Shown: positions 36,863 to 60,163 of the stretch, piece by piece | Numbering within the stretch: position 1 is the first letter of the stretch | Layout: each line of letters begins with the position of its first letter | Assembly (NCBI GenBank): GCA_963377175.1 | Contig: CAUJNA010000469.1 | Span: 895,288 to 959,287, forward strand | DNA: 64,000 nt | DNA from: Effrenium voratum | Taxonomy: Eukaryota; Sar; Dinophyceae; Suessiales; Symbiodiniaceae | Direction of reading: 5' to 3' | Translations under genes and position numbers: made by a program | Notes under the pieces: generated by a model | What the model saw: the letters and a program-made list of their open reading frames with translations, nothing else | Told to the model about the DNA's origin: nothing | Databases searched by the model: none

Positions 36863-36872
36863 CCCCCCTCAC
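36863..36872 (-). promoter_or_regulatory. Polypurine tract (plus-strand DNA primer)
   Basis: In sense orientation GTGAGGGGGG lies immediately before the 3' LTR start TGTGATTAG. This is the position and composition of a polypurine tract and supports the LTR boundary. The role is inferred from position. Confidence 0.7.
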
Positions 36873-37443
36873 GAGGAGCCCGTCATATGACGGGTGGAGC
36901 GTGCCATTTACTGATAGGATTTAACTGCTCGCATACGTCCGCAAACAGCTGGACACTACCGCCGTCAGCGGTGGAGCAAACCCACAAAGGCAGTCGCGCG
37001 ACATCCCGGGCATTAAATTCCCGCCACCACCCCGAATTAATCGGGGTAACGCTATCCAACATACCTTGTGGAAAAGTCCACATGACGACAATGGGTCACA
37101 ACTGTTTGCATCAGAAATGCAAGAAGTTTAATTCTTATCAGAAGCCATGAAATAAAAGATAACGTATGTCCATTAGTACCCTCGCCTAACGGCAAGAGGT
37201 ACTCCTGACCATGCGTACCTGAAAAATGCCTGAATTCCGCAAACCCGGGAGTAACCCCCCATCAGTTTGCTTTCCCTCTCACTCACACTGCTTCCGGATG
37301 AACACGTCCAGCAGCTCAGCAGCGGTACGGGAGAGACATGACCTCCGCGCCTCAGCGGTCCGGGAGGAACATCACCACCTCCGCACCGCGCTGACCATGG
37401 AGAACGGACGCAAGCCTATCGGCCGCAATCCTCGTGACTCAGC
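36873..37443 (-). other. 3' untranslated region of the element, rich in hairpins
   Basis: No ORF of note is present between the stop of the large 3' ORF and the polypurine tract. It contains a 16-bp perfect palindrome at 36879-36894 (CCCGTCATATGACGGG), a stem ACCGC/GCGGT near 36957-36972, a 6-bp stem CCCCGA/TCGGGG near 37031-37047, and two members of the TA(A/T/C)C-loop hairpin family (37185-37192, 37415-37422). A third begins at 37443, at the ORF end. A role in RNA packaging, stability or reverse transcription is possible but not shown. Confidence 0.6.
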
Positions 37444-40400
37444 CTATCGGCTATCGTCACGTCTCCTCCGGTCACGTCCGCCCCGCGCACGGTCCCTATC
37501 ACGATCCCTTTCGGATCTCCTGCGATCATCTCGCCTTCGATCCCGCTCCCGATCGAGTGAATCATCATCACGACGATCACGAGCATCGTCCCTCCTCCTG
37601 TCGCGATCATCCTCGCGCCGCGGACGATATCTGCGCCTCCTCGACTCTCTGGAATCCCTGGTGTCCACGGTCCTAACGGACCTCCGAGAAGGAGTACGGG
37701 AAACATCCGACTCCCTACGCCTCCTCCCAGATTGAGAGTTCGTCACGATCTGGTTGAGAGCTTCCAGTGCCGACGCGTCCTCACCATTTCTGATGAAATC
37801 CCTAACCTGCTTGTTCAGCACTCTGTTGGTGGAGATCGTCAAGAAAGCGTCCACCACCGAACTCTCAGGCAGCACCAGGAAGTGACCCTCCACCGGGCTC
37901 GCCGCGGCCCGCTCAGCAGACTGCAGCCGGATCTCCCCGCCTTCAGGCTTCTTTGCCATCGCCTTGGAGGCAGTCAAAGGCGCTACCGCATCCTTTGCCG
38001 AAGATCTGCCAAGCGCGGAGTGAAGATCATCCCCGCTAGCTTCTCTCGCTGCCGCACCTGGTCTGCTGTCGACGTCGCCAGGCCTCGTGGATGCCTCCCG
38101 CTTTGTCGACTCCTTCGCAGCCTCGTCGGGATCCCAACGGGACTTCCTTTCTCTCTTCTGCCCTTCGGCCGACCCGCGGCTACCGCCGGGAGCGTCACCT
38201 CCGCCTGTCTTCTCCTTCTTGACCTCAACCTTCGGTTCGGCCTGCTTCGTCTCCTTAGCCACAGCTTTTGGAGCCGGAGCACTCCTCGCCTCAGATGCCG
38301 AAGCAGCCTTCCCTTTCGGCTCTGCCTTGGGAACCGGGGTCACTTTAGCCTTGGCACTCGGCCTGGCCCCTTCAACCACCATCTCGGCCCAAGACTTCTT
38401 CGGCTGAGCTGCTGCTGCATCAACCTCCATCGGAGCAGGTCCAGCGTCATCCTTCGCCTTTGGGACGGATGGGCTACCGCCCTTACCGGATCCTTTACCC
38501 GGCACTTCACCTGACTTTGGTGGCGGGCCGGAAGGGCTACCGCCCTTACCGCCCTTTTCCCCCTTCTTCCCTTTTCCTTTTCCGCCCTTGGGGACCGGTT
38601 CCTGCTTGGGACCAGGACTCGGCGCAGCATGATGCACTGATTGGAGTCCCTCGATGTCCACGTTCAATGGTTCGGGTTGACGACCGTCAAGAACCGTCCT
38701 CACCCTTTCGTCGCTAACGTAGACGAATGGGTCACGGAATGGTGCGGGAGGCTCCGACTGTCCGGCATTGATCGCCTTCTGCACCTTGGCTATCGCCTCC
38801 TTCAACCTCTTCTTCTCATCATACCCTGTCTCCGATACCATGTACTCCCTGAGCTGCGACATCAACGCATGACTCTCCAGGATGTCCACGTCCTTTCGAT
38901 GGGTCGGGTACAATGGGGTCAGATGACCAGCCGCAGAACCAATCACGTATGCCATCGGGATATAGAATGACAAGTACGTGTCATGACGAGCGAACTTCCT
39001 AACGGAAGTCGTCATACGCCTACCCCACTGCGCAGCGTGTCTTGGATTGGCTCGGAAATACTCCGTGACCGACTCAAATCTATCGACTTGGTTGGTCTTG
39101 ATCAGGTGCTTCGCCACCCACTTCTCCACAAACGCATCCGAGGCCGAAATCCCAGACACATAGGAGAATTGGAAGAGCACCTTCGCCAGCTCATCCCACG
39201 CCGCATCGACACCTCCCTTGTCTTCACCAAGATAAGGGGGAAGTCTGATGCCGCTCTGCACCGTCATCCTTAGATCGGATGCCATCGAATAGGAAATCAA
39301 ATTCCTCTTGATGACTCCGACCACTTCGGAGGGAATCCTCCTGGGCTTGAACTGCCCCATGGTCCTCACCCACTCCGGCACGATGTGGCACGTTTCGAAG
39401 TCCTTTTCCTCCGCGTTGGGGATAAAGTTCGGGTAAAAGACCGGGAGCGCGCACCCGGGACACAAGTGCATCCCATTCGGCATCAATTCCGCGCACCTCA
39501 AGCAGAACGTGGCAGTCACATTCAGCCTGATCTCTTCCCGTGATCGCTTGTGCTCTCCCCTAACGGGGGTGAAGTCACCGTAGTCCCATGCCCGGTGGTA
39601 CACTATCGTGTAATCATCGTACATATACGCCGCCTTCCAAGCCCCCATGTGGATCTCGTTCCTAACGGCAAGAGTCTTCCTTCTCGTCAAAAACACGGGT
39701 CCAACCAAGGACCAGTGCACCCGAAGATCCACCATTACCACCACGTACCTACCGGAGTAGTTCCGCAGCCTGTCCCTGACATACCACGAAGGCGATACCT
39801 CAGCATCCGGCGCCATGGCTCCCACAAGTGGGATCAGGCCCTCATCCTGCCTACCATCCCCAATGGTCTCGTACACATCGGGCCTCGTGATCAATATCTC
39901 GATCATGGCCTTTCCATTTCGCCTCACCCTTTGGAGCTGAACCGCCTTCCGAAAGTCCGAGAACTTCATGATGACGTATCCCACCATGGGGAGTTCATTC
40001 CAATGCATCTCATACATCAGAGATCCGCCAGGTGCATCTTCCTGAGTATACCTGTGCCTAACGGCACTGTAACTCAAGTCGCGTCCGATCCGCGTGTGCC
40101 TAACGGCAACCAACCTGGTGCTCTCCTTGAGGAGAACGCCATCCCCGTCGTACATGACCATGAGCATCGCCTCCACTTGCCCTATCGGGAAAGCTTTAAG
40201 CGTCGGAATGAAGAACTTCCAAGACATCTCAGCGTTCTCCATACCCGAAATCTCCTTCAGGAACCAGATGGCCTGGTCACTTTTCACCCAGTTTCCAGCC
40301 TCGCGTCCGGTCTCCTTCAGCACACGTTCCTCGAATAACTCCGAGACTCTCTTTGAATTGATGACCAAGCCGTCGAAATCGCACGAGAGCAGTCTCATCA

Positions 40401-43400
40401 ACTCCTTCGCCGCCTCCCGTCCTGCAACAGTGCCCACTGTCTCCTCGTAGTTCGGGAGGTATTCACCCAACCTCGTCTTCGAGGGAACCACAATCTGGCA
40501 AGTGACGGCCTCATCAGGGATAACTCCCGTTTCCCTTAACTCTGGATTGATCTCTCGCCTATCGGCAAGATAATCCTCCTTCCCATCCAGTATCACAAGA
40601 TTGTAGGTCATCTTGCTCGCCGCCCCACTAGGCCTGAACTTCCTGCTATCATCCAGCTGGTCAGGAGCAAAGGGTCCACTAGGGGCAGCTGCACTCACCA
40701 GAGGCGCTCCTCGCCCAGAGCAGAGGTGCTTCTTGTGGAAGTTCACCATCTGATTCAGCTGCGATAGTGCGTAGGCACGATCCTCCAATGACGCACTCTT
40801 CATCCCAGCCTCAGTCAGAGGAGCCTCAGGCTTGTCATAACTCGCCTTACCGCCCCATCTCGCCGCGACCAGCTCAGCAGACTTCGCAGGGTCGATCAAA
40901 TTCCCCGACCATCCAGGCATATTGCTCAACCTCCTAGTCAACGCGTCTACCGACGCAGCCAAGTCTTCGTCCGTCACGGTGTAAGGGTCGACATTCTCCC
41001 TGTCGTCCTGACCCACATCCGGAAGCCTATAGTCCCCGCGGATGGCCTCCATCGCGGTCCTCTCGGCTTCCTCAGCCTCCTCTTGCGTGGCCACAGCTCT
41101 AGGAATCAGGAGCGCGACCTCAGCCGGCAACGACTTCTCCATGTTGATTGGAGTATTCTTGGGAAGGATTCTTCGATCATCTCCCTCCCCGCTGTACACG
41201 TATTCCCGAGCAGCCTTTCGGTACTCCTCAGCGGTAGCCCCTCTGTAGTTGGAGGCCTTGCTCGGGCCTTCCTTCCCAGCCTCGGTACCCCGAGGCGTGG
41301 ACTCCTTCGTCACGGCGGAGCCCTTCTTGGAGCCTTCCTGATCCACGTCCATGTCGTCCTTCTTCTTCTCCGTCACGGACAGCTTCCCAATGTCAGGAAG
41401 GGTCACATCATCATCCTTTCCTGACCCGGCGCCCCTATCGGGGGCCGGCTCGGTCCTCGGTTGTCCCGAAGAACTCGCCCCAGGATCCACATCGCCCTCG
41501 TCATCCACATGTGGTCGCTTTCCCCACACGATCTTCGTCTTCGGCTTCAGTGGGACAGCGACACCTCCAGCCATGTGGTGTCCAGGCCAAGTGGCTCCCT
41601 CAGGGTCATCTTCGAACCATGACTTCCCGAACGGGCACCCATCCCTACCAAGGATCTCCTTCCTATCGGAAGGGGTTCCTGAATGTGACAATGCCGACAC
41701 ATGAGATAGTAGCACCTCAACCGCTGACTGTGCCAACGTGTCAGGCATCTGCTCCCTCGTCGGGACAGTCCGCAGCTCCGGAGCGAGGTGGCCGGCAATC
41801 ATGCTGAAAGGCGCAGTCCCCAACCGCTTGCCCAATACCGCCTCGTTCAGCGCGTTGAAGTACTTCTGCAGCTTCTCCAACATTGCCGTCGCCGCCATCA
41901 GCTGGGGATGAAACATGGGCATCCGCCACGCGCGCCCAAGGGCGGAATCCACGTGCGATGCGATCACAGAGATCGTCCCTACCAGCAAGTGCGATGATGC
42001 AACCTCCGGCACCCAAGTCGGGTCGTCCAAAGGAATGCATTGGCCCGTCTGCGCGTTCAGCAAGGTAGCCCTCACCCCCGGCGCTCGAAGACAATCATAC
42101 GCCCTGCGGTTCGGGTCACTAACGACACCACGAACCATGTAATCATCCCGATCGGGCATATCTGCCCAGTCCCCCGGAGGTGCTCGCCCATGATGGTACT
42201 TCGCCTGAATGTCCTGCCTCATCCCTAACGGGATATGGGCAGCCTCGGACGCCACCTTCTTCATGTTCCATTGCTGATCACCCCACGGCGTAGACTTCCG
42301 ATCTCGAGGATTGATGTACTCCTGATCGATCCTTCCAGCAGCTCGGGAAGCATCCAACGCCCCGTACATGAAATCGTTATGCACGGCCCTCTCCAATACC
42401 GCATTCCACTCGCTATCGCGATTCGGGAACACAATGTGGCTAGTCTCGTTCGCCTTCCTCCACTCCTCCGCGGTAACCCGCTCTTGAGTGATTGCCTTGT
42501 TCCTGATCACAGCATAGATGAAGGGCTCACCAGCCTCCCTAGCCAGGACATGCTGAACGATGAACCTCCTATTCGACCTGCTTTCCGCCGGTCTTGCTGA
42601 TGTCCGCGAGCCCCTCGTGGATTGATATGAACCATGCTCACGGTGATGCCGAACTTCCGCTGACTCCAACTCGGGGGCCTCTCCCGGGTGCTCCGGGTAC
42701 GGCGTGTTTGCATAATTGTGTATGCCCCCTCGAGACTCCTGGGTTGAAGCCGCCTTCGGGGTCGCTGCAGTATCCCGCAGGTCCCCGTCGTCGTCCGTGT
42801 ACTTCGGAGCATAGGAGATGGGCACACCCGGGCCACCTGCACCCGACGCCTCCTCCTTCTTCTGACCACCAACAGGTTCTCGAACCCTGCGTTCCTCCCT
42901 AACGGGCGACGCCGCTCGCTTAGCCGCAGGCGATTCCATCGGCGGCTCTGTCGTAGTCGTAGTGGCCTGAGGCACCTCAGCTGCCCTACCGGGGGTCTCT
43001 TCCTCACCTACAGCGGGAGCCTCGGCTTCCTTCTCCGGTTCCATCTCAACGTCTCCGGCGAACTCCAGCACCTCGGCCTCGGTCGGGACCCCACCATCGT
43101 TGAAGGTATCCGTAGGAAGATCGACCCCTTCCCTATCGGGTAGGAGATCATCGACCTCGGCGGAGCCACCCGCGTTCTCCTCCTCAATCGTCGCTCTAGG
43201 CGTTCGAAGATTCGAGGACCATCGATTCCCAACTTCGGTCGCCGGGACCTGAGGTGAAGAAACTCTCGGACTCCGAGGTGGGTTCGGCGGGGATTTCGGT
43301 CTCACCGATGCCAGCATCTCCTTTGTGACTAACGCCTTAGGAGGTGCTTTCGGGGCAGCGATCTGACCCTCCACTTGCTGACCTGCGTTAGATGATTGCC

Positions 43401-46380
43401 CACCAGAGGCAACGCCTACCGGCGGTCCTCCCAGAGCGGCACCTGTCATGTCGACATCCTCAGACTCAGACATCGATCCGCCATCACCCATCTTTGAAGA
43501 AGTACCCTCCTTCAAAAGCTTGAGGATGTTGTCCCTGATGTGCAACGTGACAGAACCAGGCCATGTAGTCCTGGTCAGGGAGAAAAAGTCCGGAACTGCC
43601 GCAAGGTAGGGCGGCACCACGGCCCATGCTCTCTGGACCGGCCGATTCCTGCCGTAGCTGTCAACTTCGCTCCCCCATGACACCGCGTCTGCTGAAACCA
43701 CTGGGATCAGGTTCGCACGGAGATCGCCCATCTTATGCTGGATCTCCTTAGTCATGTGAACCCCTTGGTCACCCTCTCGATCTAACGATCGCCCCGGACC
43801 ACAAACCATCACCTTGACCTTGTTGTTGAGCGCGACCAGCGACGCCACGTCCTTACTCCACACGGTCGCCGCGTCACTTCTGGCCTTCCATGCGTTCCTC
43901 TCCCACCTATACAGGTAGGAGCCACGGAGACCAAAGACATACAGGTCATGCTTGGCAGCATCTGCATTGTTGTACTTCTGGAGGCATTCTTCCGTCCGCT
44001 TGTCCATCAGCTCGTACGCCTTGTCGATCATCATCCGAAGGGATGTCTCCTCGTTATCACGAGTGCTGGTCACGTAGTGCACCTCACAGTTCTTGAACGG
44101 CCGGCTATCTGGGGAACCCCTCAGCCGGTCATTCTTTGTCCTGCACTTGAGGATGTCATCCGCCAACGTTGCTGGGTCCATCCCTTTCTTGTTCTTCGTG
44201 GATGCAGTGTTGAACGTCTGATCCAGCAGATAGAACACAGTCGCATCCGGGGCCGCGGACTCCTCTTTGAACGCCGGAGGACCGTACCCGGCCGCCATGG
44301 CCGCAGCGATCCTCACCGCAGCACCTGTCCCACTAGCCGCTAAACACCGAAGCAAGATTACCATCTTGTCTTGGTAGCGACTCATCTCGTGCAGAACAAT
44401 GGATGGGTAGATGGACAGCATCACATCCGCTAACACGGCGATTGCCCATGTGTCCCACAGCCTTTCCATTTGGATTGGATCAACTGCCACACGGGAGTAT
44501 CCTCCCTTCGGCAGCTCCATAGCTGGCGGAACAACCTTCCCACTCCTGACCAGGCGCATCACCTTCCTAGCTTGCTCGAAACACTCAAGCTCCTGCGGGA
44601 AGAGAGCACCCCGACCAACGGCCTTTGCCTCGTCCTTGATCTCGGTAAGGTATCCCTTCGTTAGTGTGAGCTCAAACGTTTCACCCCGGATGGCCTCAAA
44701 CATGTTCGACTTCGGCACGATTCTGGCGAATAGTGCCCCACCTTCCGCTTCGGCCGCCTGAGGGGTCCCTGGAGCAGCACGCATGTTCTCCTCTTCGACG
44801 GAAAGACCTATCGGCCCCATGTAGTTCTCTGGGAAGAACTTGTGCATAGCCCACACTACCGATGGAGCATGCGGATTCCATTCGACGAATGGGTTGTAGT
44901 ACTGCAGGGTGCTATCGCCCCCTGAGTTGCACAGCTCCACATATTGTGAGTCCGCCGCAGGCTTCTCAAGCTTGATGCAGATCCCACAGATCCCCAACCT
45001 CGCGTTCGGGAACACTCGTTGGGCTCCTCGCTTGACGCCCTTCAGGTGGGGATTGTCGCTGAACAGATTCTCGGACTCGTCCGGTTGCGCGATGCAAATC
45101 GCGACCCTCGCCCACGTGTTCTGACCGTAGTGCGACAGGGTGCTGTATCCCAGGGCCTCGACCGCCTTCAACGATGTCCACACCCCTACCCATTCATCAC
45201 TCGCGGTGGACGCAGTAACCTGCATACCACCCAGGATGCTCCACAATGAGGATTGCGAGGTTCCATGGATGAGGACCTTCTCAGTGTCCGTCTGGCCCCT
45301 GAAATTGATGGCCAAATCGAAGAAAGCCCATCCATCGTCGGGACCAATTTCCACGTCAGTGGTACTCGCCGGATTCTTGGGCGAGATCCTCAACACCTGT
45401 CTACGGTCCCAGTCAAAGGCATCATGCAAGGACGTGACCACACCTGACATCTGTCCCATCGCGTGCAGGTAACCCCGCATTCCAGGCTTATCAGCCGACG
45501 CAAACTTTCTGACCGACGGGACCGACGAAAGCCTTCGTCCCGAGGAACATCTAACGATCTCCTCCCTGTTTCTCCCTTCCGTCAGCATCATCGCGTCCAC
45601 GACCAGCTCCGGAGGCGTGAACAAAGCGTTCGGCCTCTCGCTCATCCAGGCACGGATTGCGTTGAAATGGTGCTCCGCATCACCGAAATCATCTCCGCTA
45701 TACAGAGGGTGATCTCCGAATGCCACCTCTGCCTGATCAGCGACCGCCTTTACCAAGGCAGTCTGCGGGTGAACCGTCTTCCACTCCGGCCAGGCTTTCG
45801 GGTCTGCAGCCCACATTCCTCCGCATGGTTCAGCTGCCGGCTCCGTACTGCTATCCATGGGTAGCGCGCTCTTGCCACTTTCAATGCCCTCCTCAATCGC
45901 AAACACGAGATGGTAAGGAAGCAAGAAAGCAGGGTCCGTCGGAACCGCAGCGCAGAGAATGGCCGCCAAGTGCACGGCGTTCAACTCCGTGACCTCCACT
46001 CCCCGGCGCTTCATCTCAGCCACTATCGCAGCAGTCCTGATCGCCCGGTACCGGAGCAGCTTTTCATGGTCCGTCACCGGCATGTGCGACTTGTCGAGCT
46101 TGTCCTTGCTGATGTGGGACACCCTGCCAACCAGTTCGTCGAACCTCGCAGCACTGTCATCCTCAATCAGCTGATCAGCCTTCTCCATATCTGGATCAAT
46201 CGTGGTGAACTTCGGATCCTGTCCCCTAAACCCTTTAATCGTCCACTCGCGGTACCCCGCAAGCAAACAACTGGCCACAGCCTTAGGCTTCTCCATACCC
46301 AAGCCCATCTCCAGGTCCCAGGACGGCCGCGGAGGCGTCGCCATGCAGTGCCCCAGGCCCATTCCGCCAGCTGCCGCCAT
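37444..46380 (-). CDS. Giant accessory ORF of the copia element, 2,978 codons, unknown function
   Basis: One uninterrupted frame of 8.9 kb with ATG at 46380 (context ACGCATGG, in-frame TGA just upstream). It takes the env position but I see no signal peptide or membrane segment. Residues about 365-515 contain VLIHGTSQSSLWSILGG, then GVWTSLKAVEALGYS and QYYNPFVEWNP, which faintly resemble the H-Y-E layout of ADP-ribosyltransferases. Residues about 720-1000 alternate strands and helices. Then come a P/E-rich linker, a second globular region with a CxxC...CxxC zinc ribbon (FCLRCAEL..HLCPGC, about 39440-39515), a K/G/P-rich linker, a KRERKSRWDP motif as in splicing factors (about 38130), and an RS/RD-rich tail. 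Its integrity over 9 kb implies recent selection. No confident homology was recognised. Confidence 0.85.
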   Translation of the reverse strand: MAAAGGMGLGHCMATPPRPSWDLEMGLGMEKPKAVASCLLAGYREWTIKGFRGQDPKFTTIDPDMEKADQLIEDDSAARFDELVGRVSHISKDKLDKSHMPVTDHEKLLRYRAIRTAAIVAEMKRRGVEVTELNAVHLAAILCAAVPTDPAFLLPYHLVFAIEEGIESGKSALPMDSSTEPAAEPCGGMWAADPKAWPEWKTVHPQTALVKAVADQAEVAFGDHPLYSGDDFGDAEHHFNAIRAWMSERPNALFTPPELVVDAMMLTEGRNREEIVRCSSGRRLSSVPSVRKFASADKPGMRGYLHAMGQMSGVVTSLHDAFDWDRRQVLRISPKNPASTTDVEIGPDDGWAFFDLAINFRGQTDTEKVLIHGTSQSSLWSILGGMQVTASTASDEWVGVWTSLKAVEALGYSTLSHYGQNTWARVAICIAQPDESENLFSDNPHLKGVKRGAQRVFPNARLGICGICIKLEKPAADSQYVELCNSGGDSTLQYYNPFVEWNPHAPSVVWAMHKFFPENYMGPIGLSVEEENMRAAPGTPQAAEAEGGALFARIVPKSNMFEAIRGETFELTLTKGYLTEIKDEAKAVGRGALFPQELECFEQARKVMRLVRSGKVVPPAMELPKGGYSRVAVDPIQMERLWDTWAIAVLADVMLSIYPSIVLHEMSRYQDKMVILLRCLAASGTGAAVRIAAAMAAGYGPPAFKEESAAPDATVFYLLDQTFNTASTKNKKGMDPATLADDILKCRTKNDRLRGSPDSRPFKNCEVHYVTSTRDNEETSLRMMIDKAYELMDKRTEECLQKYNNADAAKHDLYVFGLRGSYLYRWERNAWKARSDAATVWSKDVASLVALNNKVKVMVCGPGRSLDREGDQGVHMTKEIQHKMGDLRANLIPVVSADAVSWGSEVDSYGRNRPVQRAWAVVPPYLAAVPDFFSLTRTTWPGSVTLHIRDNILKLLKEGTSSKMGDGGSMSESEDVDMTGAALGGPPVGVASGGQSSNAGQQVEGQIAAPKAPPKALVTKEMLASVRPKSPPNPPRSPRVSSPQVPATEVGNRWSSNLRTPRATIEEENAGGSAEVDDLLPDREGVDLPTDTFNDGGVPTEAEVLEFAGDVEMEPEKEAEAPAVGEEETPGRAAEVPQATTTTTEPPMESPAAKRAASPVREERRVREPVGGQKKEEASGAGGPGVPISYAPKYTDDDGDLRDTAATPKAASTQESRGGIHNYANTPYPEHPGEAPELESAEVRHHREHGSYQSTRGSRTSARPAESRSNRRFIVQHVLAREAGEPFIYAVIRNKAITQERVTAEEWRKANETSHIVFPNRDSEWNAVLERAVHNDFMYGALDASRAAGRIDQEYINPRDRKSTPWGDQQWNMKKVASEAAHIPLGMRQDIQAKYHHGRAPPGDWADMPDRDDYMVRGVVSDPNRRAYDCLRAPGVRATLLNAQTGQCIPLDDPTWVPEVASSHLLVGTISVIASHVDSALGRAWRMPMFHPQLMAATAMLEKLQKYFNALNEAVLGKRLGTAPFSMIAGHLAPELRTVPTREQMPDTLAQSAVEVLLSHVSALSHSGTPSDRKEILGRDGCPFGKSWFEDDPEGATWPGHHMAGGVAVPLKPKTKIVWGKRPHVDDEGDVDPGASSSGQPRTEPAPDRGAGSGKDDDVTLPDIGKLSVTEKKKDDMDVDQEGSKKGSAVTKESTPRGTEAGKEGPSKASNYRGATAEEYRKAAREYVYSGEGDDRRILPKNTPINMEKSLPAEVALLIPRAVATQEEAEEAERTAMEAIRGDYRLPDVGQDDRENVDPYTVTDEDLAASVDALTRRLSNMPGWSGNLIDPAKSAELVAARWGGKASYDKPEAPLTEAGMKSASLEDRAYALSQLNQMVNFHKKHLCSGRGAPLVSAAAPSGPFAPDQLDDSRKFRPSGAASKMTYNLVILDGKEDYLADRREINPELRETGVIPDEAVTCQIVVPSKTRLGEYLPNYEETVGTVAGREAAKELMRLLSCDFDGLVINSKRVSELFEERVLKETGREAGNWVKSDQAIWFLKEISGMENAEMSWKFFIPTLKAFPIGQVEAMLMVMYDGDGVLLKESTRLVAVRHTRIGRDLSYSAVRHRYTQEDAPGGSLMYEMHWNELPMVGYVIMKFSDFRKAVQLQRVRRNGKAMIEILITRPDVYETIGDGRQDEGLIPLVGAMAPDAEVSPSWYVRDRLRNYSGRYVVVMVDLRVHWSLVGPVFLTRRKTLAVRNEIHMGAWKAAYMYDDYTIVYHRAWDYGDFTPVRGEHKRSREEIRLNVTATFCLRCAELMPNGMHLCPGCALPVFYPNFIPNAEEKDFETCHIVPEWVRTMGQFKPRRIPSEVVGVIKRNLISYSMASDLRMTVQSGIRLPPYLGEDKGGVDAAWDELAKVLFQFSYVSGISASDAFVEKWVAKHLIKTNQVDRFESVTEYFRANPRHAAQWGRRMTTSVRKFARHDTYLSFYIPMAYVIGSAAGHLTPLYPTHRKDVDILESHALMSQLREYMVSETGYDEKKRLKEAIAKVQKAINAGQSEPPAPFRDPFVYVSDERVRTVLDGRQPEPLNVDIEGLQSVHHAAPSPGPKQEPVPKGGKGKGKKGEKGGKGGSPSGPPPKSGEVPGKGSGKGGSPSVPKAKDDAGPAPMEVDAAAAQPKKSWAEMVVEGARPSAKAKVTPVPKAEPKGKAASASEARSAPAPKAVAKETKQAEPKVEVKKEKTGGGDAPGGSRGSAEGQKRERKSRWDPDEAAKESTKREASTRPGDVDSRPGAAAREASGDDLHSALGRSSAKDAVAPLTASKAMAKKPEGGEIRLQSAERAAASPVEGHFLVLPESSVVDAFLTISTNRVLNKQVRDFIRNGEDASALEALNQIVTNSQSGRRRRESDVSRTPSRRSVRTVDTRDSRESRRRRYRPRREDDRDRRRDDARDRRDDDSLDRERDRRRDDRRRSERDRDRDRARGGRDRRRRDDSR

Positions 46381-51870: not shown

Positions 51871-52729
51871 GGTCTTTGATCTTGACTGGACAGCTCGTCC
51901 CTATCGGGATAAAGAGCTCGGTTCGCGCTTCAACGTGGACGCGAGTGAGAACCTTCTCGTCTTCATTTGCGATCCAGTGGTCTCCTCCTTCATCAACGTC
52001 CTCTGAGTCGATCTTCCCAGCATGTCTGGAGTCGTTTTGGGCGTTTTGAACCCCCCCCTTTCTATCCCTGCGAATCTTGGGAGCAATGGGGTAGAAGTCG
52101 ACCAGACAACCAAACGGCAGAATGACTCCGCTGAAGTTCCCGTTACCGTGGCGTCGCATCCACGGTGATCCCTCACCGCGATTTTCGATGTTCCTTGCCA
52201 TGGAAAAATGCCTAACGGCAAATGGCCACCATCGAGGTTCAAATCCAGCTTGACGCAGGAGCACACGTGCCCCGTGAAGAACGAGCTTAACCTTGTTCTC
52301 GATCAGGCCATTGGTCTTGGGCATGCCCGGTGTAGAAAGCCGGTGCAATGCTCCAAGCGTAGTGACAGCATTCTTCAGCTCTGGGGCCTGGTCGCTGTAC
52401 ACTAACTTCAGAGTTTGCCCCCCTGCAAACCTGCGAAATGCCTCCAGCGTATTGCTACGGGATCTGGATTGCACAGGGAGGACTTCGAGGTAGTCAGTAG
52501 CGAGGTCATAGAACACTATCGCGTCCGCCTCGCCATGAAATCCTCGATCCTTCAATCCGCGCAACACCATCGTGTCAGCAGTGGTTAGGTCCCCGAAACT
52601 TACCACGTCATGCGCAGCAGCACCACCTTTGCGGCGAAGCTTGACATTCTCCATTCTTCGCACGCTGGCAGTGCGGGCAATAGGGGTTCTTCGGGAGATG
52701 GGTAAGCATATGGCGAAGCGTCTTAGCAT
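51641..52729 (-). CDS. Retrotransposon integrase catalytic core (separate frame)
   Basis: Integrase inserts the cDNA into the host genome. The D,D35E triad is visible: VVSFGDLTTADT, then YSDQAPELKNA, then KTNGLIENKVK. The first about 25 codons overlap the protease ORF in another frame; the biological join is probably near 52654, where the zinc finger reads CQRAK and this frame resumes MENVKLRRKG. One extra A in AAGAATGG would account for the +1 shift. The C-terminal part has FIPIGTSCPVKIKDL and WTGETHFDC, a copy of the module seen before the zinc finger. The frame ends within an acidic stretch and the protein resumes after another +1 shift in the pol ORF. Confidence 0.85.
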   Translation of the reverse strand: MLRRFAICLPISRRTPIARTASVRRMENVKLRRKGGAAAHDVVSFGDLTTADTMVLRGLKDRGFHGEADAIVFYDLATDYLEVLPVQSRSRSNTLEAFRRFAGGQTLKLVYSDQAPELKNAVTTLGALHRLSTPGMPKTNGLIENKVKLVLHGARVLLRQAGFEPRWWPFAVRHFSMARNIENRGEGSPWMRRHGNGNFSGVILPFGCLVDFYPIAPKIRRDRKGGVQNAQNDSRHAGKIDSEDVDEGGDHWIANEDEKVLTRVHVEARTELFIPIGTSCPVKIKDLGRRRSTVLNYLDGSTEFVVDENWLQAENDRGGNHEWTGETHFDCDFDQIDEDEAEIYENEEYEPECNDESGLCSH

Positions 52730-54332
52730 CTGCCCGCCATTCAGCCTCTGTGCGGAGTCCGGAGAGAAAGTTTATCTCGACAATGTCACCATCATCCCCT
52801 TCCCCCGGGCCAGGAAAAGGTGGTGAGTGGCTATCGCCCTCACCCCCCTGTTCCGCCTTTCCGGGAAGAGCAACGGTCTCGCACTTGACCCGAAACCACG
52901 TTTCACCCGTCCAAGGGACATCAGATGCTATCGCATGCTGATCTCTTTCGGATAACTCCCAAAGACTATCAACCAGCACCTCATGGGTAACCCCATTTCG
53001 ATGAACGACAGTTTTCCTGTAGTTGTCCAATCGATCAACTCCAACTGGGCAATCATCGCCTATTGGCACAAACTTTGCTTTGCGCGGAAGCCGGTGCTCC
53101 TTCACAACATGGCCCGACCGCTCAGTGCGCCAGGTGTCCCGTAGCTCACTCTTGGCCGCAAGCTTAGACCTACACAGCGGAATCTCGCTTGCTTCAAGCC
53201 CTCGATACGCCGCCCCGGGGGCAGGCATAGCAGGGATTGGCTCAGCATCATCAAGAGTGGGAGAAACGAACTGAGTGTCACCATGAGGAAGATATGGCAC
53301 GTTGTTGATGACATCCAATGTCACCGTCCGGCCCGAAGGACACGTGAGAGTAGGCTTGCAACCTGCAGTCCATACAAACGAGTATCCCATATCCATACAG
53401 CGCTTCCCAACGGATATGATGGAAGGAGTGGACTCAAGGACGTGTGCCTCAATCACCTCGTCGAGGTTCCCAACATCAGCATCAACACGACCAGCGGTGC
53501 GAGTCGCCCCGTTAGCAGTGTGCAGCGCGTGAGTGTGTCCGCCTTTGGCAATCAGGGCCCTATCGGGTCCTTTCAAATCATCAAGACCGACCAGATCCAT
53601 TGGGCAGCCAGTATCTACTAGCCACCTCACCCCGCCGTATCCCACGGGTGCAGCAACCTTCTGAGTGTACTTCGGCTTTCGAACAACGCGATGCCCCCGC
53701 ATATCCCCAGGATTGGTGTCGATGTCCTCGTCATCGTCTAAGAGCACTTGGGCGTGAACAGCCGCTGCTCTTATCAGAGCACTTTGAACTTCCCTAGCAA
53801 TTCTCTTGCGCGAAGGGAACTTAATCGCATTTGGATGGCTGTATCCAGCCTCACGGCAGCGATTCACGACCCTACCCGTATTGTCATTCTCAATCGAGAC
53901 AACAAACACATCAGGAAGATCGGGAATCTTGACCCTGAGAGGTTCCCTACCGGGACCCTTCGGGAAGTACTTCTTCCTCCAGGACAGTGCAACCTCCGCA
54001 TCATCACAGTACCAAAACGTCGTCTTGGTATCACTTCGTCTTGGGAGTCTCCTGAACAAGGTTGCTCGGCGATCACAAAAGTTCACCCCGATATCCTCGA
54101 TCACGGTCCCATTTGCGTCAACTGTCCGTCTCCAAATGACTTGGTCCCATTTAGGACCTCCACCGGTAGTGCCGGAGAAGAACAATGCGCCTCGCTCGCT
54201 TTTCTCCCAACTGCTAACGCAAGGAGGAAGGCAACCCGGTGCAGACCCACCGGTAGCTGGGGCAACAGCCCACATAGCTGGACACGCCACAACAACACGG
54301 TTGGCCTCAGGGTAACGGCCCGCCCCGCCTAA
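52608..54332 (-). CDS. Retrotransposon aspartic protease and integrase zinc-binding region
   Basis: About 574 codons if entered by -1 slippage; there is no good ATG near the start (the first start-like codon is GTG at 54290). The protease active site is RWLVDTGCPMDLVG about 225 residues from that GTG, followed by the hydrophobic strands expected of a retropepsin. The C-terminal end carries LRHMLTHLPKNPYCPHCQRAK, an HHCC-type integrase zinc finger. The frame is lost just after this motif; the integrase core continues in the next ORF after a +1 shift. Residues around the motif VPIGDDCPV...WTGETWF resemble a segment after the integrase, indicating an internal duplication. The product would cleave Gag-Pol in virus-like particles. 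Confidence 0.85.
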   Translation of the reverse strand, partial: LGGAGRYPEANRVVVACPAMWAVAPATGGSAPGCLPPCVSSWEKSERGALFFSGTTGGGPKWDQVIWRRTVDANGTVIEDIGVNFCDRRATLFRRLPRRSDTKTTFWYCDDAEVALSWRKKYFPKGPGREPLRVKIPDLPDVFVVSIENDNTGRVVNRCREAGYSHPNAIKFPSRKRIAREVQSALIRAAAVHAQVLLDDDEDIDTNPGDMRGHRVVRKPKYTQKVAAPVGYGGVRWLVDTGCPMDLVGLDDLKGPDRALIAKGGHTHALHTANGATRTAGRVDADVGNLDEVIEAHVLESTPSIISVGKRCMDMGYSFVWTAGCKPTLTCPSGRTVTLDVINNVPYLPHGDTQFVSPTLDDAEPIPAMPAPGAAYRGLEASEIPLCRSKLAAKSELRDTWRTERSGHVVKEHRLPRKAKFVPIGDDCPVGVDRLDNYRKTVVHRNGVTHEVLVDSLWELSERDQHAIASDVPWTGETWFRVKCETVALPGKAEQGGEGDSHSPPFPGPGEGDDGDIVEINFLSGLRTEAEWRADAKTLRHMLTHLPKNPYCPHCQRAKNGECQASPQRWCCCA

Positions 54333-54337
54333 AAATC
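54329..54337 (-). promoter_or_regulatory. Candidate -1 ribosomal frameshift site at the gag stop
   Basis: In sense the gag frame reads GAT TTT TAG. The P-site Phe codon TTT can slip back one base onto TTT, after which the next codon is TTA in the protease frame, open to 52608. The downstream sequence is very GC-rich (GGCGGGGCGGGCCG) and could slow ribosomes. It is not a canonical X-XXY-YYZ heptamer, so the call rests on the U5 run, the stop position and the frame relation. Confidence 0.55.
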
Positions 54338-57300
54338 CGTCAATCCTTGAGCGGGGCTGTCGAGACGCCTCGCCTCCCTATCGGGAGGACTGGGCGTTGG
54401 CGATCTAGGGGTATCCCCCTCTTCATCCTCAACAACCGGACCGGCAGTGGAACGAGGCGTGATAGGCTTCGTGCCTGGTGGTGGCTTCTGATGCAGGTAC
54501 TTGCACGGCTGAGCTGTGCACTTGCCATACATCCAGTCGTAGCAGTATCCGAAGAACATAGGCTTGTCCCTAACGGGCCTATCTCCAGTCCTCGGCGTAG
54601 AAGGCGCAGCGGGGTTCCTTGGGCTCTTGTCGTGCTCAAACCTGCATTCCCGGCCATATTGACACTTCCCAGTCTTCGTATACTCCCAGCACGCCCGATC
54701 AGCAGGCCCAGCAGGGGACTGTCTTCTTGGCGACTTGGGAGATGGCGTGCGCTTGTCCCTCTGACTGCCTCTTCCTGGTGAAGCCCTGTCCCTTTGACTG
54801 CTCCTTCCGGGCGAAGATGATCTTGGTTTTCCGTCGGGTTTCCCATCCCTTCCGGACCTAACGGACCTTGAAGGGCTGGGATCACTCTTCCTGGCAAGTG
54901 GGTCGTACCGCCGTACAACACCAGGGGCACCAGGATGCCTATCCCTCTCCCGGGATTGAGAGCCTGATCGTGACCTTTGTTCGTGAAAGGTCTGGTACAT
55001 CTGGAGCGTGTTCTGGCGCTTCTGCCACCGTTCGACACAGTCCTGACAAGCCTTATAAAGCCACGCGAACGACCTAACGGTCATATCGCGATCCCACCTT
55101 TCAATGTCAGGCCGCATACAGCGCAGATGACGAACGTTCTCGATGAACACAGCCAATAGTACCCCATCATCGATCTTCTTCCTAATCCCAGAAATGAGAT
55201 TGTCCCAGGTGCTCAGATAACTCCGGAGCCTTGCCTCATCATCGGAGTGACCTGTCTGCCGGCACTTGAGACTGGTCAACTCAGCGATCTTGAAGGTCTG
55301 ATCGTCTTCGACTCCAGTCTGCAGGTGGTTCAGCAGAAGCTTCAAGATCTGTCTCCCCTTGATACCCTGCGGAGGACTCATATTCTGAGCGGCTTCGGTC
55401 AGGCGATTCATCTTGTCCCTAACAGCCCTGGTCTTGATACACTCCCTGATAGCGCTCGTGAAGTTTGAGTCCAAAATCGGGTACTTGCAGGGTCCGCCAA
55501 GAGCATCATAGTCAAGCCTCTCAGTCTCTGATATCCACGCTAACGCGTAGTCAGAGTCAAAGCTGAAAGCATTCCTGACCCTCTCCTTGATCTCTGAAAG
55601 CCACTCCCGCAGCTTATCAGCTGTCGGCTCGGCAGGCAGCACGATTGTGTTGCACTTGTGATGGAACCGGTCCTTATCGACAACGGTGGAAATGAGAGCC
55701 CCTATCGGGGTACATGAGGTAATCCTGCAACTTTCACACAGTCTCGCAGGCATAGGGCAGCAAACTTCACACGCCCTCATTCCGCAACCAACGCAAGGAA
55801 CAAGAGGGAAACCAGGCTCAGGGATCCTGCTGCACTTTGTGCACCTGTCCCGTCCATCGTCTCCCCTCAAGGCTTCAGGGAGAAGACCACCATCTCCCTG
55901 CCTACCGGCACCATTCACACTATAGCCGAGGCTAAGACCCGGCCCAAGGTTACCACCGCTCGCAACACTTGAGGGGTAACCTGTGGCATTGCTAGACTGA
56001 CTAACGCCAGCGCCAACCCCTTGGTGACTAACTCCACCTCCGTAGGCAGGGCCATAGAAGCTGGAACCACACTGATTGTTCCCAATTCCATGGGCATCCG
56101 CAGCACTACCGTGGAACCCAGGCGCTCCACCAGGGTAACCCCCGGTAGGAGCCCCTCCACTCGGGCCTCCAGAAGGCCCAGCGGGATCTTGGCCTCCACC
56201 ATAATGTCCAGGACCTGGCGGTGGAGCTGGGGCATGTCCAGGCCCACCACTTCCGCTTCCACCTTGACCAGGTGGTCCGCCTTGCCCACCACCTCCCCCG
56301 GGAGGAGGAGGAGGGGGCGGTCCAGCTTGAGCGCGTTCATGCCGAATATTGCAGCGTGCACATCGCTCAAGGCCGTCATTTCCGAAGTAACTGTGATTCT
56401 CACAGACGTGAGTCCCACAATCCGTGCAGAGATACATGGAGACCTCCTGAGCATTCTTGCGGCATGCCCAGCATTTCATCTTCAAGAAATGACAATTGCA
56501 ACAGTCCCCATCGTCACCACGGCAAAGCCCGCAGAACTCACGACTGCATGTCACACACGAGAATTCAGCATTCGGGTGTCTACGGTCGTTGGGATCATCA
56601 AGGGCACAAATCTTCGGCGCGTCTGGGCCATCACCGCCGGGAGCCCCTCTTGCAGCCGGCGCTGAGGCCTGTCCACGATCCGAAGGAGCTCCAGCAGTCC
56701 CTCGCCTATCGCCGGGACTCTGGTTGTCGGCGCTGATTCTGCTCCCAGGAGTCCTCCACTCATCACCAGGACTCTGGATGTCGGCATGGGCCCTATTATC
56801 CCCACCACCTCCTGAATGACGACCTGGGTTCGGAGAGACGTTTCCGCTATCGCGGATTGGCCTATCAAAATTCGGAGAGACGCTCCCGCTATCGCGGATC
56901 GGCCTCTCCCCCCTCGGTTGTCGACTCCGGGCCTCAGATCCCCTATCGGGGACGGCAGCAGGCCTCGGGCTCCTATTCCTACCCGCATCCCTATTGGGGG
57001 AAATAGAAACGTCCCCCCTTGCGCGCGCGCGGGGACCACCCCTTGCACGCTCCGGTGGCGAATGCGACCTGTCAGGCAACCCCCGAACCCTCCTGCTCCT
57101 GCTGTCGGACCTCTCCCTAACGGGATAGATGGGATGCCTGTCTGCGCGAGAAGGATCGACCCTATCGGGCACATTCGGCAAAACATGATCAGGCAAAATA
57201 ACGCCTTCGCCTGGTCTTACCGGCAGGCCAGTACCCCGGCCGTCACCCTCCCCTGGTGTAGGCGTCGGTGACCTGATCCTATGTCCTTGCCCCGCAAACG

Positions 57301-60148
57301 CATGGTAACCAACATTCCGTCTTTCTCTGGGTTGTGGAGGAGCTTCATTAATCTGCTGGACACCCTGAAGCATGCCAGCAGCCTCGTCAAATTGACCCTC
57401 CATTTCAAAGAGCTGGGACATGATTCTGTTGTTCGCGGCGCTAAGGTTACGCACGTTACCATCGATAGCGCTGACTCTCCGCATAACACCTTCAAGTGTA
57501 CTCCGGAATGTGCCGAGCTCTCGCCTAACGGCAGGCTGCACTTGGTCACTGCTGGCAGGAAGATTACGGATCTGCCCTTGGATGCCATCAACGACCCGAT
57601 TCACAATTGCCGATCTCGCTTCATACTGTTCAACATGTGACTTCACGGTTTCAAACCTCGAAATGATGTCGTCATGATCCCGACGTTGACGTTGAATTCC
57701 TCGAGCCAGATCATGCATCTTCCGATTGATCTCGTCAACAGCCTCATGCCAGTCCTGCGGGGAATCATGCCCTGATGGTCTATCGACCTCCTGAGAACCC
57801 CTTCCACTCTGCAGTCTAGACACTCGATTAACAAGACGAGTGTGCTCTTCTTTGACCCCTTCAATAGATTCAGAGGCCCACTTAGCAAACTTCTCGTGTT
57901 CAAGGAGAGCTTCCTCAATCTTCAGGTTTAACTCCCTGAAATTCGCGTCAACCACACTGCTGCTGGCCCTATCGGACAGATTCGCGACAGGATTCGGGTT
58001 CCATACACCTGCCGGTGTCCGCATCCCAACGGTTTTCTCTACCGAGAACATCCGTTTCTCAAGCTTGTCCAAATCCTTAAGGGTCTCGTCCTCAGAAGCA
58101 GCATGGCTTCTGCGGGCAGCCTCACTATTTTCCTGAATCATCAGGCGAAGCCGATCAGTCGATGCCTCATTGTCCCTGACAGATTCATGGACCTCGTGGG
58201 ACAATAGGTTAATCCTCTGCTCCACGACCTCGGCTTGCTCATCGATGGCTTGCCTCATAATGGCCTTGCTATCGGGAATAACTTCCCTTGCGAACCGTTG
58301 AACTATCATTCGCATCCTCCCGGCATCAGATTGGGTCGCAACCTCAGCTGCCAGGCGATCGACCTTGTCCTTTGTCCGTTGACTCTCGTCGCTCCATTCC
58401 CTTCGCATGGAACTCACCTGACCGTTCAGTACCCTGATTTGGTCAGCAAAGATGTGGAACGCCTTCGCGACTGAGCCGGAAACCTCACCTCTCTCGAGCA
58501 TCTCCTGGATGTGCAAATCGAACACCTCCTTCGCCCTAGCGTCAGCTGATTCGCCGGAAGACTGGGATCTGAGGGCGGGAGGAGTCGATATCTCGATCCT
58601 CTCAGGAGCCCCACTAGCCCCGGCATGTCTTCCGGGGTCATCCACGGGACAATCATCAATCCTGGATGGTCTACTCGGGGTAGATCCCCTTCTCCGGCTA
58701 TCGCCAGATCGAGGATCAATGTTGGATGCACGTGACTCGGGGGTGGAGTGGATGTGAACATCAGCGGGATCGGGCATCTCCTCATCCTGCGGAGTTGAAT
58801 CCATTGGTGAGGGGCTAGCCCTCCTCGCCTTTGACCTATCGGTCTCAGCGGCGAGAGGTGGCGGTCTCTTTGCAGAAACACTACGTTCCCTGGCAGTCGA
58901 ACCCCATTGAGGTGTGAACTCGTTGCTTGACCTCAGAGTTTCAAGATCACTGGTATCTCGCCCTAACGGGCTAGCGATCGACGGACGATCTTCGATCCCG
59001 AGTGCATCGGCAAGCCGACCATCTCTGGCACCTGTCCTAACAACATCGGCAGCCCGCTCAGTGATCCTCGGTGAACCAGTAACCCGGTTCGAGCTCACGT
59101 CTCTCTGACTCAACGGACCTCCAAATGTGATGTTGGGAAAGGGGGGAACATTCGGGGAATCACCAATAGCCGGGGGACCTACCGGTCCCTCGCGGTCATG
59201 AATGGCCTCCAATCCCCGAAGAACTTCCCGACTTTCCCTGGCTCTCTCTCTCTCGCTTCTGGCGTCCCTGTCAACACGAAGGTCCCTGACGGCTCCACGA
59301 GAGAGGCTCCTGGGCCTCGCAGCATCACGGATCCTAGCATTTCGTCGTGGTTGGTCCTCCTCCTCATCACGGCGATCCGCAAACGCGGCATACTCATCAT
59401 CATCATCGACCTCAAACTTGGCAGCGGCGGGATTAGTCCTTGCAGTCTCACGGCTGCCTGCATCTCGGCGCGAATGGCTCTCCTCCTCATCCGCAAAATT
59501 GTAATCTTCGCCATCATAAGACTCAGATTTGGCAGTATTAGGGTTGGGCCTACCGGCATCAGACCCCTGCTTTGAGCTACTGCCCCAACCTGCGGTTGAT
59601 CTCAACAGATCATCGTATCCGAAGTCCGTGAATTTCCGCTCCTCGTGCTCATCAAACTGACCTGGATTCTGAGAACCAGTGGATCGGCCCGGGATACCTC
59701 CCGGAACCAGAACCATAGTTCCTGGTCCCTGCGGCCTACTCTCAAACTCATCCGAGACCTGCGACTCACCTGGAACAAGAGATCTCGGAGGTCGAATCGG
59801 CATGGCCTCCGGGTCATCCGAATGAGGGCGGGCCATGTCCATCGCCATGCTGGTGAAGTCAAAATGTCCACGCCTGTGACCTGATTCAGAGCCACTCCTA
59901 CCGGAGTAAACCCTTCGTGTCCGCTCGTCATCAGTGGCCTGGCGGAAAATACGATCGTCTCCATCGTCGGCGTACCTGCCACGGCCCCTGGGTGTATCCC
60001 TACCGGGATCTTCACCCCTGCGGTCCTGACCTGTCGAACCTGCTTCAAAATCCTCGTAGTCATAGTCCGGCAGGTCCTCACCTGAGCGGAGGCCACCTAG
60101 GATGGCCTCCTCATCCACGACGCTCCTGCGAGATCGTGGGGTCGACAT
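54329..60148 (-). CDS. Gag-like polyprotein with Cys-rich modules and two CCCH zinc fingers
   Basis: Structural protein of the element, about 1,939 residues from the ATG at 60148; the frame also opens at 60253 inside the LTR. The N-terminal third is charged, R/S/D-rich low complexity. A long predicted coiled coil follows (about 57.3-58.5 kb), then a Cys/His-rich module at 56346-56580 (CxxCxxxxCxxC spacing and CWACRKN, RING or B-box-like). A G/P-rich linker leads to a second Cys-rich module at about 55730-55840 (CTKC...CVGC...CEVCC). A helical, capsid-like segment occupies about 54960-55640. Two CCCH fingers close the protein: C-x8-C-x5-C-x3-H at about 54632-54691 and C-x7-C-x4-C-x3-H at about 54491-54546. 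These sit where most copia Gags carry a CCHC knuckle. The ORF ends in TAG within a U5 run, suggesting -1 frameshifting into the protease ORF. Confidence 0.85.
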   Translation of the reverse strand: MSTPRSRRSVVDEEAILGGLRSGEDLPDYDYEDFEAGSTGQDRRGEDPGRDTPRGRGRYADDGDDRIFRQATDDERTRRVYSGRSGSESGHRRGHFDFTSMAMDMARPHSDDPEAMPIRPPRSLVPGESQVSDEFESRPQGPGTMVLVPGGIPGRSTGSQNPGQFDEHEERKFTDFGYDDLLRSTAGWGSSSKQGSDAGRPNPNTAKSESYDGEDYNFADEEESHSRRDAGSRETARTNPAAAKFEVDDDDEYAAFADRRDEEEDQPRRNARIRDAARPRSLSRGAVRDLRVDRDARSERERARESREVLRGLEAIHDREGPVGPPAIGDSPNVPPFPNITFGGPLSQRDVSSNRVTGSPRITERAADVVRTGARDGRLADALGIEDRPSIASPLGRDTSDLETLRSSNEFTPQWGSTARERSVSAKRPPPLAAETDRSKARRASPSPMDSTPQDEEMPDPADVHIHSTPESRASNIDPRSGDSRRRGSTPSRPSRIDDCPVDDPGRHAGASGAPERIEISTPPALRSQSSGESADARAKEVFDLHIQEMLERGEVSGSVAKAFHIFADQIRVLNGQVSSMRREWSDESQRTKDKVDRLAAEVATQSDAGRMRMIVQRFAREVIPDSKAIMRQAIDEQAEVVEQRINLLSHEVHESVRDNEASTDRLRLMIQENSEAARRSHAASEDETLKDLDKLEKRMFSVEKTVGMRTPAGVWNPNPVANLSDRASSSVVDANFRELNLKIEEALLEHEKFAKWASESIEGVKEEHTRLVNRVSRLQSGRGSQEVDRPSGHDSPQDWHEAVDEINRKMHDLARGIQRQRRDHDDIISRFETVKSHVEQYEARSAIVNRVVDGIQGQIRNLPASSDQVQPAVRRELGTFRSTLEGVMRRVSAIDGNVRNLSAANNRIMSQLFEMEGQFDEAAGMLQGVQQINEAPPQPRERRNVGYHAFAGQGHRIRSPTPTPGEGDGRGTGLPVRPGEGVILPDHVLPNVPDRVDPSRADRHPIYPVRERSDSRSRRVRGLPDRSHSPPERARGGPRARARGDVSISPNRDAGRNRSPRPAAVPDRGSEARSRQPRGERPIRDSGSVSPNFDRPIRDSGNVSPNPGRHSGGGGDNRAHADIQSPGDEWRTPGSRISADNQSPGDRRGTAGAPSDRGQASAPAARGAPGGDGPDAPKICALDDPNDRRHPNAEFSCVTCSREFCGLCRGDDGDCCNCHFLKMKCWACRKNAQEVSMYLCTDCGTHVCENHSYFGNDGLERCARCNIRHERAQAGPPPPPPPGGGGGQGGPPGQGGSGSGGPGHAPAPPPGPGHYGGGQDPAGPSGGPSGGAPTGGYPGGAPGFHGSAADAHGIGNNQCGSSFYGPAYGGGVSHQGVGAGVSQSSNATGYPSSVASGGNLGPGLSLGYSVNGAGRQGDGGLLPEALRGDDGRDRCTKCSRIPEPGFPLVPCVGCGMRACEVCCPMPARLCESCRITSCTPIGALISTVVDKDRFHHKCNTIVLPAEPTADKLREWLSEIKERVRNAFSFDSDYALAWISETERLDYDALGGPCKYPILDSNFTSAIRECIKTRAVRDKMNRLTEAAQNMSPPQGIKGRQILKLLLNHLQTGVEDDQTFKIAELTSLKCRQTGHSDDEARLRSYLSTWDNLISGIRKKIDDGVLLAVFIENVRHLRCMRPDIERWDRDMTVRSFAWLYKACQDCVERWQKRQNTLQMYQTFHEQRSRSGSQSRERDRHPGAPGVVRRYDPLARKSDPSPSRSVRSGRDGKPDGKPRSSSPGRSSQRDRASPGRGSQRDKRTPSPKSPRRQSPAGPADRACWEYTKTGKCQYGRECRFEHDKSPRNPAAPSTPRTGDRPVRDKPMFFGYCYDWMYGKCTAQPCKYLHQKPPPGTKPITPRSTAGPVVEDEEGDTPRSPTPSPPDREARRLDSPAQGLTDF

Positions 60149-60163
60149 AGAGCTTGTAGTTGA

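Follow-up and report, generated by a model that had tools for sequence, protein, structure and literature searches.

Why should the RNA of one retrotransposon carry about a hundred small hairpins that share a single loop on differing stems? The question is raised by a copia-type long terminal repeat (LTR) retrotransposon of the dinoflagellate Effrenium voratum, found in a stretch of 64,000 nucleotides (contig CAUJNA010000469.1, positions 895,288 to 959,287) that is referred to here, at its full length, as the window. The hairpins, each formed around a GDUA tetraloop (D = A, U or G), are far in excess of chance, strongly selected and present in one retrotransposon lineage. The best reading, held at about even confidence, is that they are dispersed packaging signals bound by the element's Gag protein. 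The element and its hairpin array are located as follows.

36544..60482, sense on the minus strand: whole copia-type LTR element, 23.9 kb, with two LTRs 100% identical over 319 bp
37132..60009, minus strand: array of GDUA-loop hairpins, dispersed over coding and non-coding parts; stems are Watson-Crick paired over at least 3 bp in 103 and over at least 4 bp in 74

An earlier, sequence-only reading of the window had described the hairpins through the plus-strand octamer CCTA(A/T/C)CGG. There are indeed 49 copies on that strand, all within 37185-60006 inside the element and none elsewhere in the window, against 0.94 expected from a first-order Markov model; the next pair outwards is Watson-Crick in 42 of the 49 and G-U in two more. 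The variant with loop TAGC, CCTAGCGG, is absent, as had been noted, and the five further C-TA(A/T/C)C-G sites named at the time are all present. One octamer is found on the minus strand. The estimate of about 70 hairpins reflected a real array but was an undercount, the closing pair not being confined to C-G. A scan of the 23.3-kb internal region, with expectations derived from all other tetraloops, finds 262 sense GDUA tetranucleotides between the LTRs. Watson-Crick pairing of the flanks extends to 3 bp or more at 103 of them (4.6 expected) and to 4 bp or more at 74 (1.1 expected). These 74 are divided between GATA (36), GTTA (21) and GGTA (17) loops in the sense orientation, each some 48 to 77 times above expectation, and no other tetraloop has more than three such stems in the internal region. 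GCUA forms a stem of at least 3 bp at two of 46 sites and one of at least 4 bp at none, so that the sense total with GCTA included is 105 of 308 at the shorter length. When G-U pairs are allowed, four paired layers are present at 110 of 262 GDUA sites, compared to 36 of 1420 GNNA loops in which the third base is not U.

The closing pair is C-G in 67 of the 103 hairpins and G-C, A-T or T-A in the other 36; the constant unit is the loop, not C-loop-G. Conditional pairing exceeds expectation in each of layers 1-5 and falls to it in layer 6 (9 observed, 8.6 expected), indicating that about 5 bp of stem are selected. Among the 74 longer stems there are 48 different 4-bp arms, and the hairpins show no regular spacing (coefficient of variation 0.87; Kolmogorov-Smirnov P = 0.15). 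Examples, and the loop G positions of all 74, are given below.

41279..41296, minus strand: hairpin with a 7-bp stem, loop GGUA
59174..59189, minus strand: hairpin with a 6-bp stem, loop GGUA
38994..39009, minus strand: hairpin with a 6-bp stem, loop GUUA
54373..54388, minus strand: hairpin with a 6-bp stem, loop GAUA
43778..43791, minus strand: hairpin with a 5-bp stem, loop GUUA, one of the sites named in the sequence-only reading
Loop G positions, stem at least 4 bp, minus strand, 1-25 of 74: 60004, 59902, 59698, 59183, 58967, 58840, 58592, 58433, 58282, 58043, 57784, 57121, 56947, 56893, 56851, 55906, 55706, 55618, 55544, 55078, 54415, 54382, 53951, 53845, 53775
Loop G positions, stem at least 4 bp, minus strand, 26-50 of 74: 52991, 52932, 52216, 51905, 50760, 50647, 50027, 49711, 49363, 48530, 48441, 47949, 47290, 47144, 47103, 47058, 46989, 46579, 46256, 46191, 45754, 45492, 45219, 44654, 44501
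Loop G positions, stem at least 4 bp, minus strand, 51-74 of 74: 44362, 44058, 43786, 43420, 42477, 42417, 42229, 42162, 41667, 41439, 41289, 40951, 40524, 40104, 40062, 39607, 39564, 39003, 38541, 38478, 38184, 37677, 37448, 37139

Such an array might be a by-product of codon use, base composition or a general tendency to form inverted repeats. Most of it falls in five long open reading frames (ORFs), which in sense order are Gag-like, ORF2, ORF3, Pol and ORF5.

60164..60482, minus strand: 5' LTR in sense orientation, 319 bp
54329..60253, minus strand: Gag-like ORF, listed from TTG with the first ATG at 60148; 31 hairpins with stems of at least 3 bp
52608..54290, minus strand: ORF2, 560 aa; its span contains 9 hairpins
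51641..52729, minus strand: ORF3, 362 aa
46675..51870, minus strand: Pol ORF with dUTPase (PF00692, E 6e-37) and copia-type reverse transcriptase (PF07727, E 2e-5, under its cut-off); 17 hairpins
46435..46584, minus strand: region lying between Pol and ORF5; it contains three hairpins, with loops at 46579, 46480 and 46441
37444..46380, minus strand: ORF5, 2978 aa; 38 GDUA hairpins start in it, 37 of them wholly inside
36544..36862, minus strand: 3' LTR in sense orientation, 319 bp

The codon-preserving shuffle proposed in the sequence-only reading was applied 1000 times to each of the five ORFs, ORF2 and ORF3 being trimmed to avoid overlap. It gave 1.9 +- 1.4 hairpins with stems of at least 4 bp (maximum 7) where 71 are observed, and 6.6 +- 2.4 with stems of at least 3 bp (maximum 16) where 96 are observed; the hairpins are not a consequence of codon use. 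Shuffling right arms among the 262 sites produced a mean of 2.4 and a maximum of 8 stems of at least 4 bp in 2000 shuffles, against the 74 found. On the antisense strand of the internal region, only two of 164 GNTA sites have stems of at least 3 bp and none of at least 4 bp, and in the left flank (1-36543) stems of the latter length occur at two of 199 GNTA sites on the plus strand and one of 228 on the minus. A strand-symmetric inverted-repeat bias, or composition, is ruled out as the cause by these antisense and flanking backgrounds together with the codon shuffles. The enrichment is likewise specific to the loop: at stems of at least 4 bp, YNMG (6 against 6.6 expected) and GNRA (5 against 4.3) are not enriched, GNCA and AGNN are near expectation and YNUG is slightly above it (8 against 3.3), and analogous loops of three, five and six bases are at expectation, which sets the loop length at four. 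No Rfam family matched at the gathering threshold over 36544-60482.

Three claims about the distribution of the hairpins fared differently. It had been held that within ORFs they occupy only the two frames in which the UAG inside the unit is not read as a stop; as the rule arises from that stop codon, it applies only to loops followed by G, and 11 of the 99 ORF hairpins (GCTA included) are in the third frame. Ten of these are closed by G-C or A-T, and in the eleventh, at 37448, the UAG is the stop of ORF5 itself. This stop codon (37444-37448) thus forms part of a hairpin, contributing to its loop and closing pair. The LTRs were said to lack hairpins, and indeed none of their three GDTA sites has a stem of 3 bp or more; but with only about 1.4 hairpins per LTR to be expected from the internal density, this emptiness is uninformative. 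The supposed scarcity in the reverse transcriptase core does not reach significance (4 where 7.8 are expected, P = 0.11).

Imperfect stems reveal the strand on which selection acts. Where a single non-Watson-Crick pair interrupts the first four layers, it is G-U in 32 cases, A-C in two and another mismatch in 25 at GDUA sites, compared to 234, 152 and 777, respectively, around all loops. A sense A-C is an antisense G-U, so selection is on the sense strand, where G-U is tolerated and A-C is not. The sites are therefore selected as hairpins of the sense RNA, a sense cDNA being formally possible too. Folded in a 184-nt context, 73 GDUA sites have a mean predicted pairing probability of 0.83 and 98 other tetraloops with stems of at least 4 bp one of 0.32, a contrast that is supportive only, as the GDUA stems are richer in GC.

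Variation between copies of the element points the same way. At least 27 copies of pol were scored in the 1.16 Gb genome, at 96-100% identity. Relative to the most divergent of these, C1035, the stems differ at nine of 862 sites and the rest at 851 of 22219; of five loop changes, four are exchanges of A, G and U at the second position and the fifth affects A4. When hairpin sites from any copy were included (four copies for the gag and ORF5 sides, eight for pol, gapped columns dropped, and shared changes counted once as variable columns), stems were variable at 10 of 686 sites and the remainder at 1208 of 21834 (P = 1e-7), corresponding to about a quarter of the background rate. Loop positions G, U and A varied at one of 228 sites and position N at five of 76. 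Loop G1, U3 and A4 and the pairing of the stem are hence constrained, and the second loop position is free except for C. The selected RNA structure with fixed loop asserted from the sequence alone is in this way borne out by the codon shuffles, the G-U/A-C asymmetry and the constraint between copies, to which the loop codons of one relative, described below, can be added. The description of the stems as covarying was correct insofar as they differ between sites; no two-sided compensatory change at one site was found among the copies compared. Nine changed pairs have letters in all copies, six of which remain paired through G-U or A-U and three of which are broken; in addition, one copy has lost another hairpin by deletion.

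A homologue search for ORF5, covering the 7982 candidates that share most words with it and proteins of 0.55 to 1.75 times its length, found one, P0125, which is 58% identical. At the 13 loop codons in the first phase (GNT), five residues are kept in P0125, five are exchanged among Asp, Val and Gly and three are replaced by other residues; for 111 other GNT codons the corresponding figures are 66, 2 and 43. Such exchanges thus make up five of eight changed loop codons against two of 45 controls (Fisher P = 4e-4, a post hoc value since the pattern was first noticed in this same alignment). No excess is seen in P0125 at second-phase loop codons (Ile/Leu/Val exchanges 3 of 6 against 5 of 12), nor in loop codons of the closer relatives P0122 (1 of 17 against 10 of 156) and P0070 (1 of 3 against 3 of 68), and none of 19 changed loop codons in five more distant Pol proteins (P0001-P0004 and P0016) is an Asp/Val/Gly exchange.

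The expectation that related elements would keep the pairing holds for copies of the same lineage and fails for the next copia families, which were read over parts of their elements other than gag. Family C, the nearest of those read (pol 59% identical), lacks the hairpins, and its alignment is free of gaps at each of the 17 in pol; 11 are in conserved stretches, and the last six are in an aligned stretch without shared residues. Since the alignment with this hairpin-less family is gap-free, the hairpins in the conserved stretches were built by substitution, and an origin by insertion or template switching is rejected on the same alignment. GDTA hairpins with stems of at least 4 bp number one, on both strands together, in 30 PF07727 loci (110,088 bases, 28 distinct), four, in near-identical copies, in seven family B loci (38,592 bases) and one in five family C loci (27,987 bases). 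Other copia families were considered as carriers of the GDUA code and set aside, none having a comparable density in the parts read. Searches for DNA relatives outside the genome found none in viral_contigs (with pol and a piece of ORF5) or genome_contigs (with the ORF5 piece). As far as has been read, the hairpins are confined to one copia lineage.

What might use them? A single protein may read the GDUA loop on variable stems of about 5 bp, and the likeliest candidate is a pair of zinc fingers in Gag.

55013..55630, minus strand: capsid-like domain of Gag, ORF residues about 1542-1747
54479..54703, minus strand: two CCCH zinc fingers of Gag, at about residues 1851-1925 of the ORF, in the nucleocapsid position following the capsid-like domain

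Pfam families PF18044 (E 3.5e-5) and PF22628 (E 5.7e-4) match the fingers, each below its curated cut-off, and a comparison by sequence with CCCH chains of the PDB gives weak matches to MBNL1, TTP and POS-1-type chains (best E 0.002). Ahead of the capsid-like domain, two Cys-rich, B-box- or RING-like stretches are visible by eye, as is a coiled-coil-like part of the Gag ORF. The arrangement of a capsid-like domain with two CCCH fingers after it makes binding and packaging by Gag plausible: standing where retroviral Gag has its nucleocapsid, the fingers would bind the hairpins, so that Gag could collect and condense the element's own RNA, and many weak, identical contacts along the 23-kb molecule might provide selectivity over host RNA while helping capsid assembly. 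The fuller proposal, that this is a genome-wide GDUA identity code, installed by substitution in one lineage and replacing a single packaging signal, with a CCCH-finger Gag as its reader, is put forward tentatively, at slightly less than even confidence. Tandem CCCH fingers are shared with proteins of the Unkempt, MBNL and TTP type, a likeness known from the finger motif. The fingers of those proteins bind largely single-stranded motifs, Unkempt preferring UAG. If the Gag pair is the reader, hairpin-loop specificity would extend the range of the finger family, and the two together would provide a compact RNA tag and reader.

The closest parallels are the packaging signals of single-stranded RNA viruses, in which many dispersed stem-loops have a common recognition motif (PMC4751978, PMC6281560); in MS2, the coat-protein sites are reported to be dispersed genome-wide (PMC4751978). 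The element similarly has stem-loops with a shared motif spread over its whole length, 103 or 74 in 23 kb depending on the stem threshold, and these are selected as RNA structure. It differs in being an LTR retrotransposon, in its strict GDUA loop in place of a degenerate series and in having about 100 sites known from sequence alone. Gag also selects the RNA of the LTR retrotransposons Ty1 and Ty3, but the cis-acting packaging sequences of Ty1 map to within 580 nt of the 5' end, and dispersed uniform hairpins are not mentioned in the part of the source available (PMC4974528). Among titles and the opening lines of abstracts in the open literature, no report of dispersed hairpins in retrotransposons was found.

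Loops of this kind have been implicated in protein recognition before. The UNCG fold is ascribed to GNYA loops, with GCUA and GUUA specifically named (PMC5633025), and GNUA is named together with YNMG as optimal for the contact between the enterovirus replication origin oriL and viral protein 3CD (PMC6563195); against a general rule, GAUA inside the octaloop of encephalomyocarditis virus (EMCV) is reported as unstructured by nuclear magnetic resonance (PMC3173479). GAUA, GUUA and GGUA are all GNYA loops on a stem, as YNMG-like tetraloops are, whereas the reported member GCUA is not enriched here; a UNCG-like fold is reported for GUUA and GCUA, and no such report was seen for GAUA or GGUA. Domain d of oriL thus has the same loop class, with GUUA in both, and its loop is read by 3CD (PMC6563195, PMC5633025), which makes recognition of a GDUA-type loop by a protein credible. 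However, oriL is one replication-origin hairpin in which YNMG and GCUA also work, whereas the element has about 100 copies, no enrichment of YNMG and an exclusion of GCUA; recognition would consequently be by sequence rather than by fold class alone.

The interest of the element is that the packing of RNA genomes through numerous dispersed hairpins has so far been argued mainly from degenerate sites. GDUA sites are uniform and numerous enough to be recognised in a single sequence and distinguished from effects of codon use, and synonymous edits could put them to the test; the element would serve as a model of how a packaging code is installed genome-wide and constrains protein evolution, through Asp/Val/Gly exchanges at loop codons.

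Of the alternatives to packaging by Gag, the one that survives best, though unlikely, is a different reader, which could be the product of ORF5 or an RNA-binding protein of the host, serving export, localisation, translational repression or the formation of condensates instead of encapsidation. As far as has been seen, ORF5 and the hairpins go together, the sole ORF5 homologue found also bearing the loop-codon signature, and, with hairpins in all ORFs, every mRNA of the element would contain some. As a reader, ORF5 itself is disfavoured by a Pfam search that gave no match and no RNA-binding family, and by a structure prediction with pLDDT 28.5 and no usable model; its restriction is made tentative by the bounds of the homologue search (7982 candidates, 0.55-1.75 times the query length).

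Many modifying enzymes use strict small loops with a fixed U-A. The hairpins share that character, and seven relatives of the element carry the KptA-like domain PF01885, so the hairpins might be places where an enzyme of the element or the host modifies or cuts the RNA. This is improbable: copies differ least at loop G, U and A (1 of 228), leaving no mutagenic editing visible through reverse transcription, and cleavage at around a hundred places would be expected to destroy the genomic RNA. It is just as doubtful that the loops are stability caps alone, on mini-hairpins whose task is to make the RNA compact or protect it from host defence, with nothing reading the loop itself. The UNCG-like fold reported for GUUA (PMC5633025) and the small YNUG surplus (8 against 3.3) would fit, but other stable caps go unused at stems of at least 4 bp (YNMG 6 against 6.6, GNRA 5 against 4.3, GCUA 0 of 46) and stem selection ends at about 5 bp.

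A role at the DNA level, with hairpins in single-stranded cDNA acting in recombination, integration or replication, is disfavoured and very improbable; the asymmetry between strands would also be expected if one cDNA strand were concerned, but the tolerance of G-U type pairs in the sense strand only (32 against 2) is most simply explained by RNA, the sites are found along the entire element, and the hairpins are missing from the other copia families read. Nor is there much more than a trace of probability in an unselected mutational artefact of mobile mini-hairpins or template-switch palindromes: template switching can yield perfect short inverted repeats, but all 17 pol hairpins align gap-free with a hairpin-less family (the last six without residue identity), the loop stays constant across 48 different 4-bp arms among 74, and the sites are constrained after birth.

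With paired LTRs and an RVT_2-type reverse transcriptase, the element has two marks of a Ty1/copia LTR retrotransposon. The PF07727 match on Pol scores 24.8 bits against a cut-off of 31.6, and the domain is also found, for example, in the close relatives P0003 and P0004, which show 46-47% identity over more than 90%; close homologues with a named source are from Symbiodinium. No integrase was matched by Pfam on the 36544..60482 copy, and no 5-bp target-site duplication is visible by eye at the outer edges of the identical LTRs (36539-36544 and 60482-60487). Between 46675 and 54290, ORF2, ORF3 and Pol are in separate frames in this copy, while an open frame of 2566 aa surrounds pol in 13 of the 27 copies scored. 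The N-terminal part of ORF5 (44189-46380) appears KptA/ADP-ribosyltransferase-like by eye, which the Pfam search does not confirm. Outside the element, a long array of 8-bp tandem repeats at 19976-21500 has open frames on both strands.

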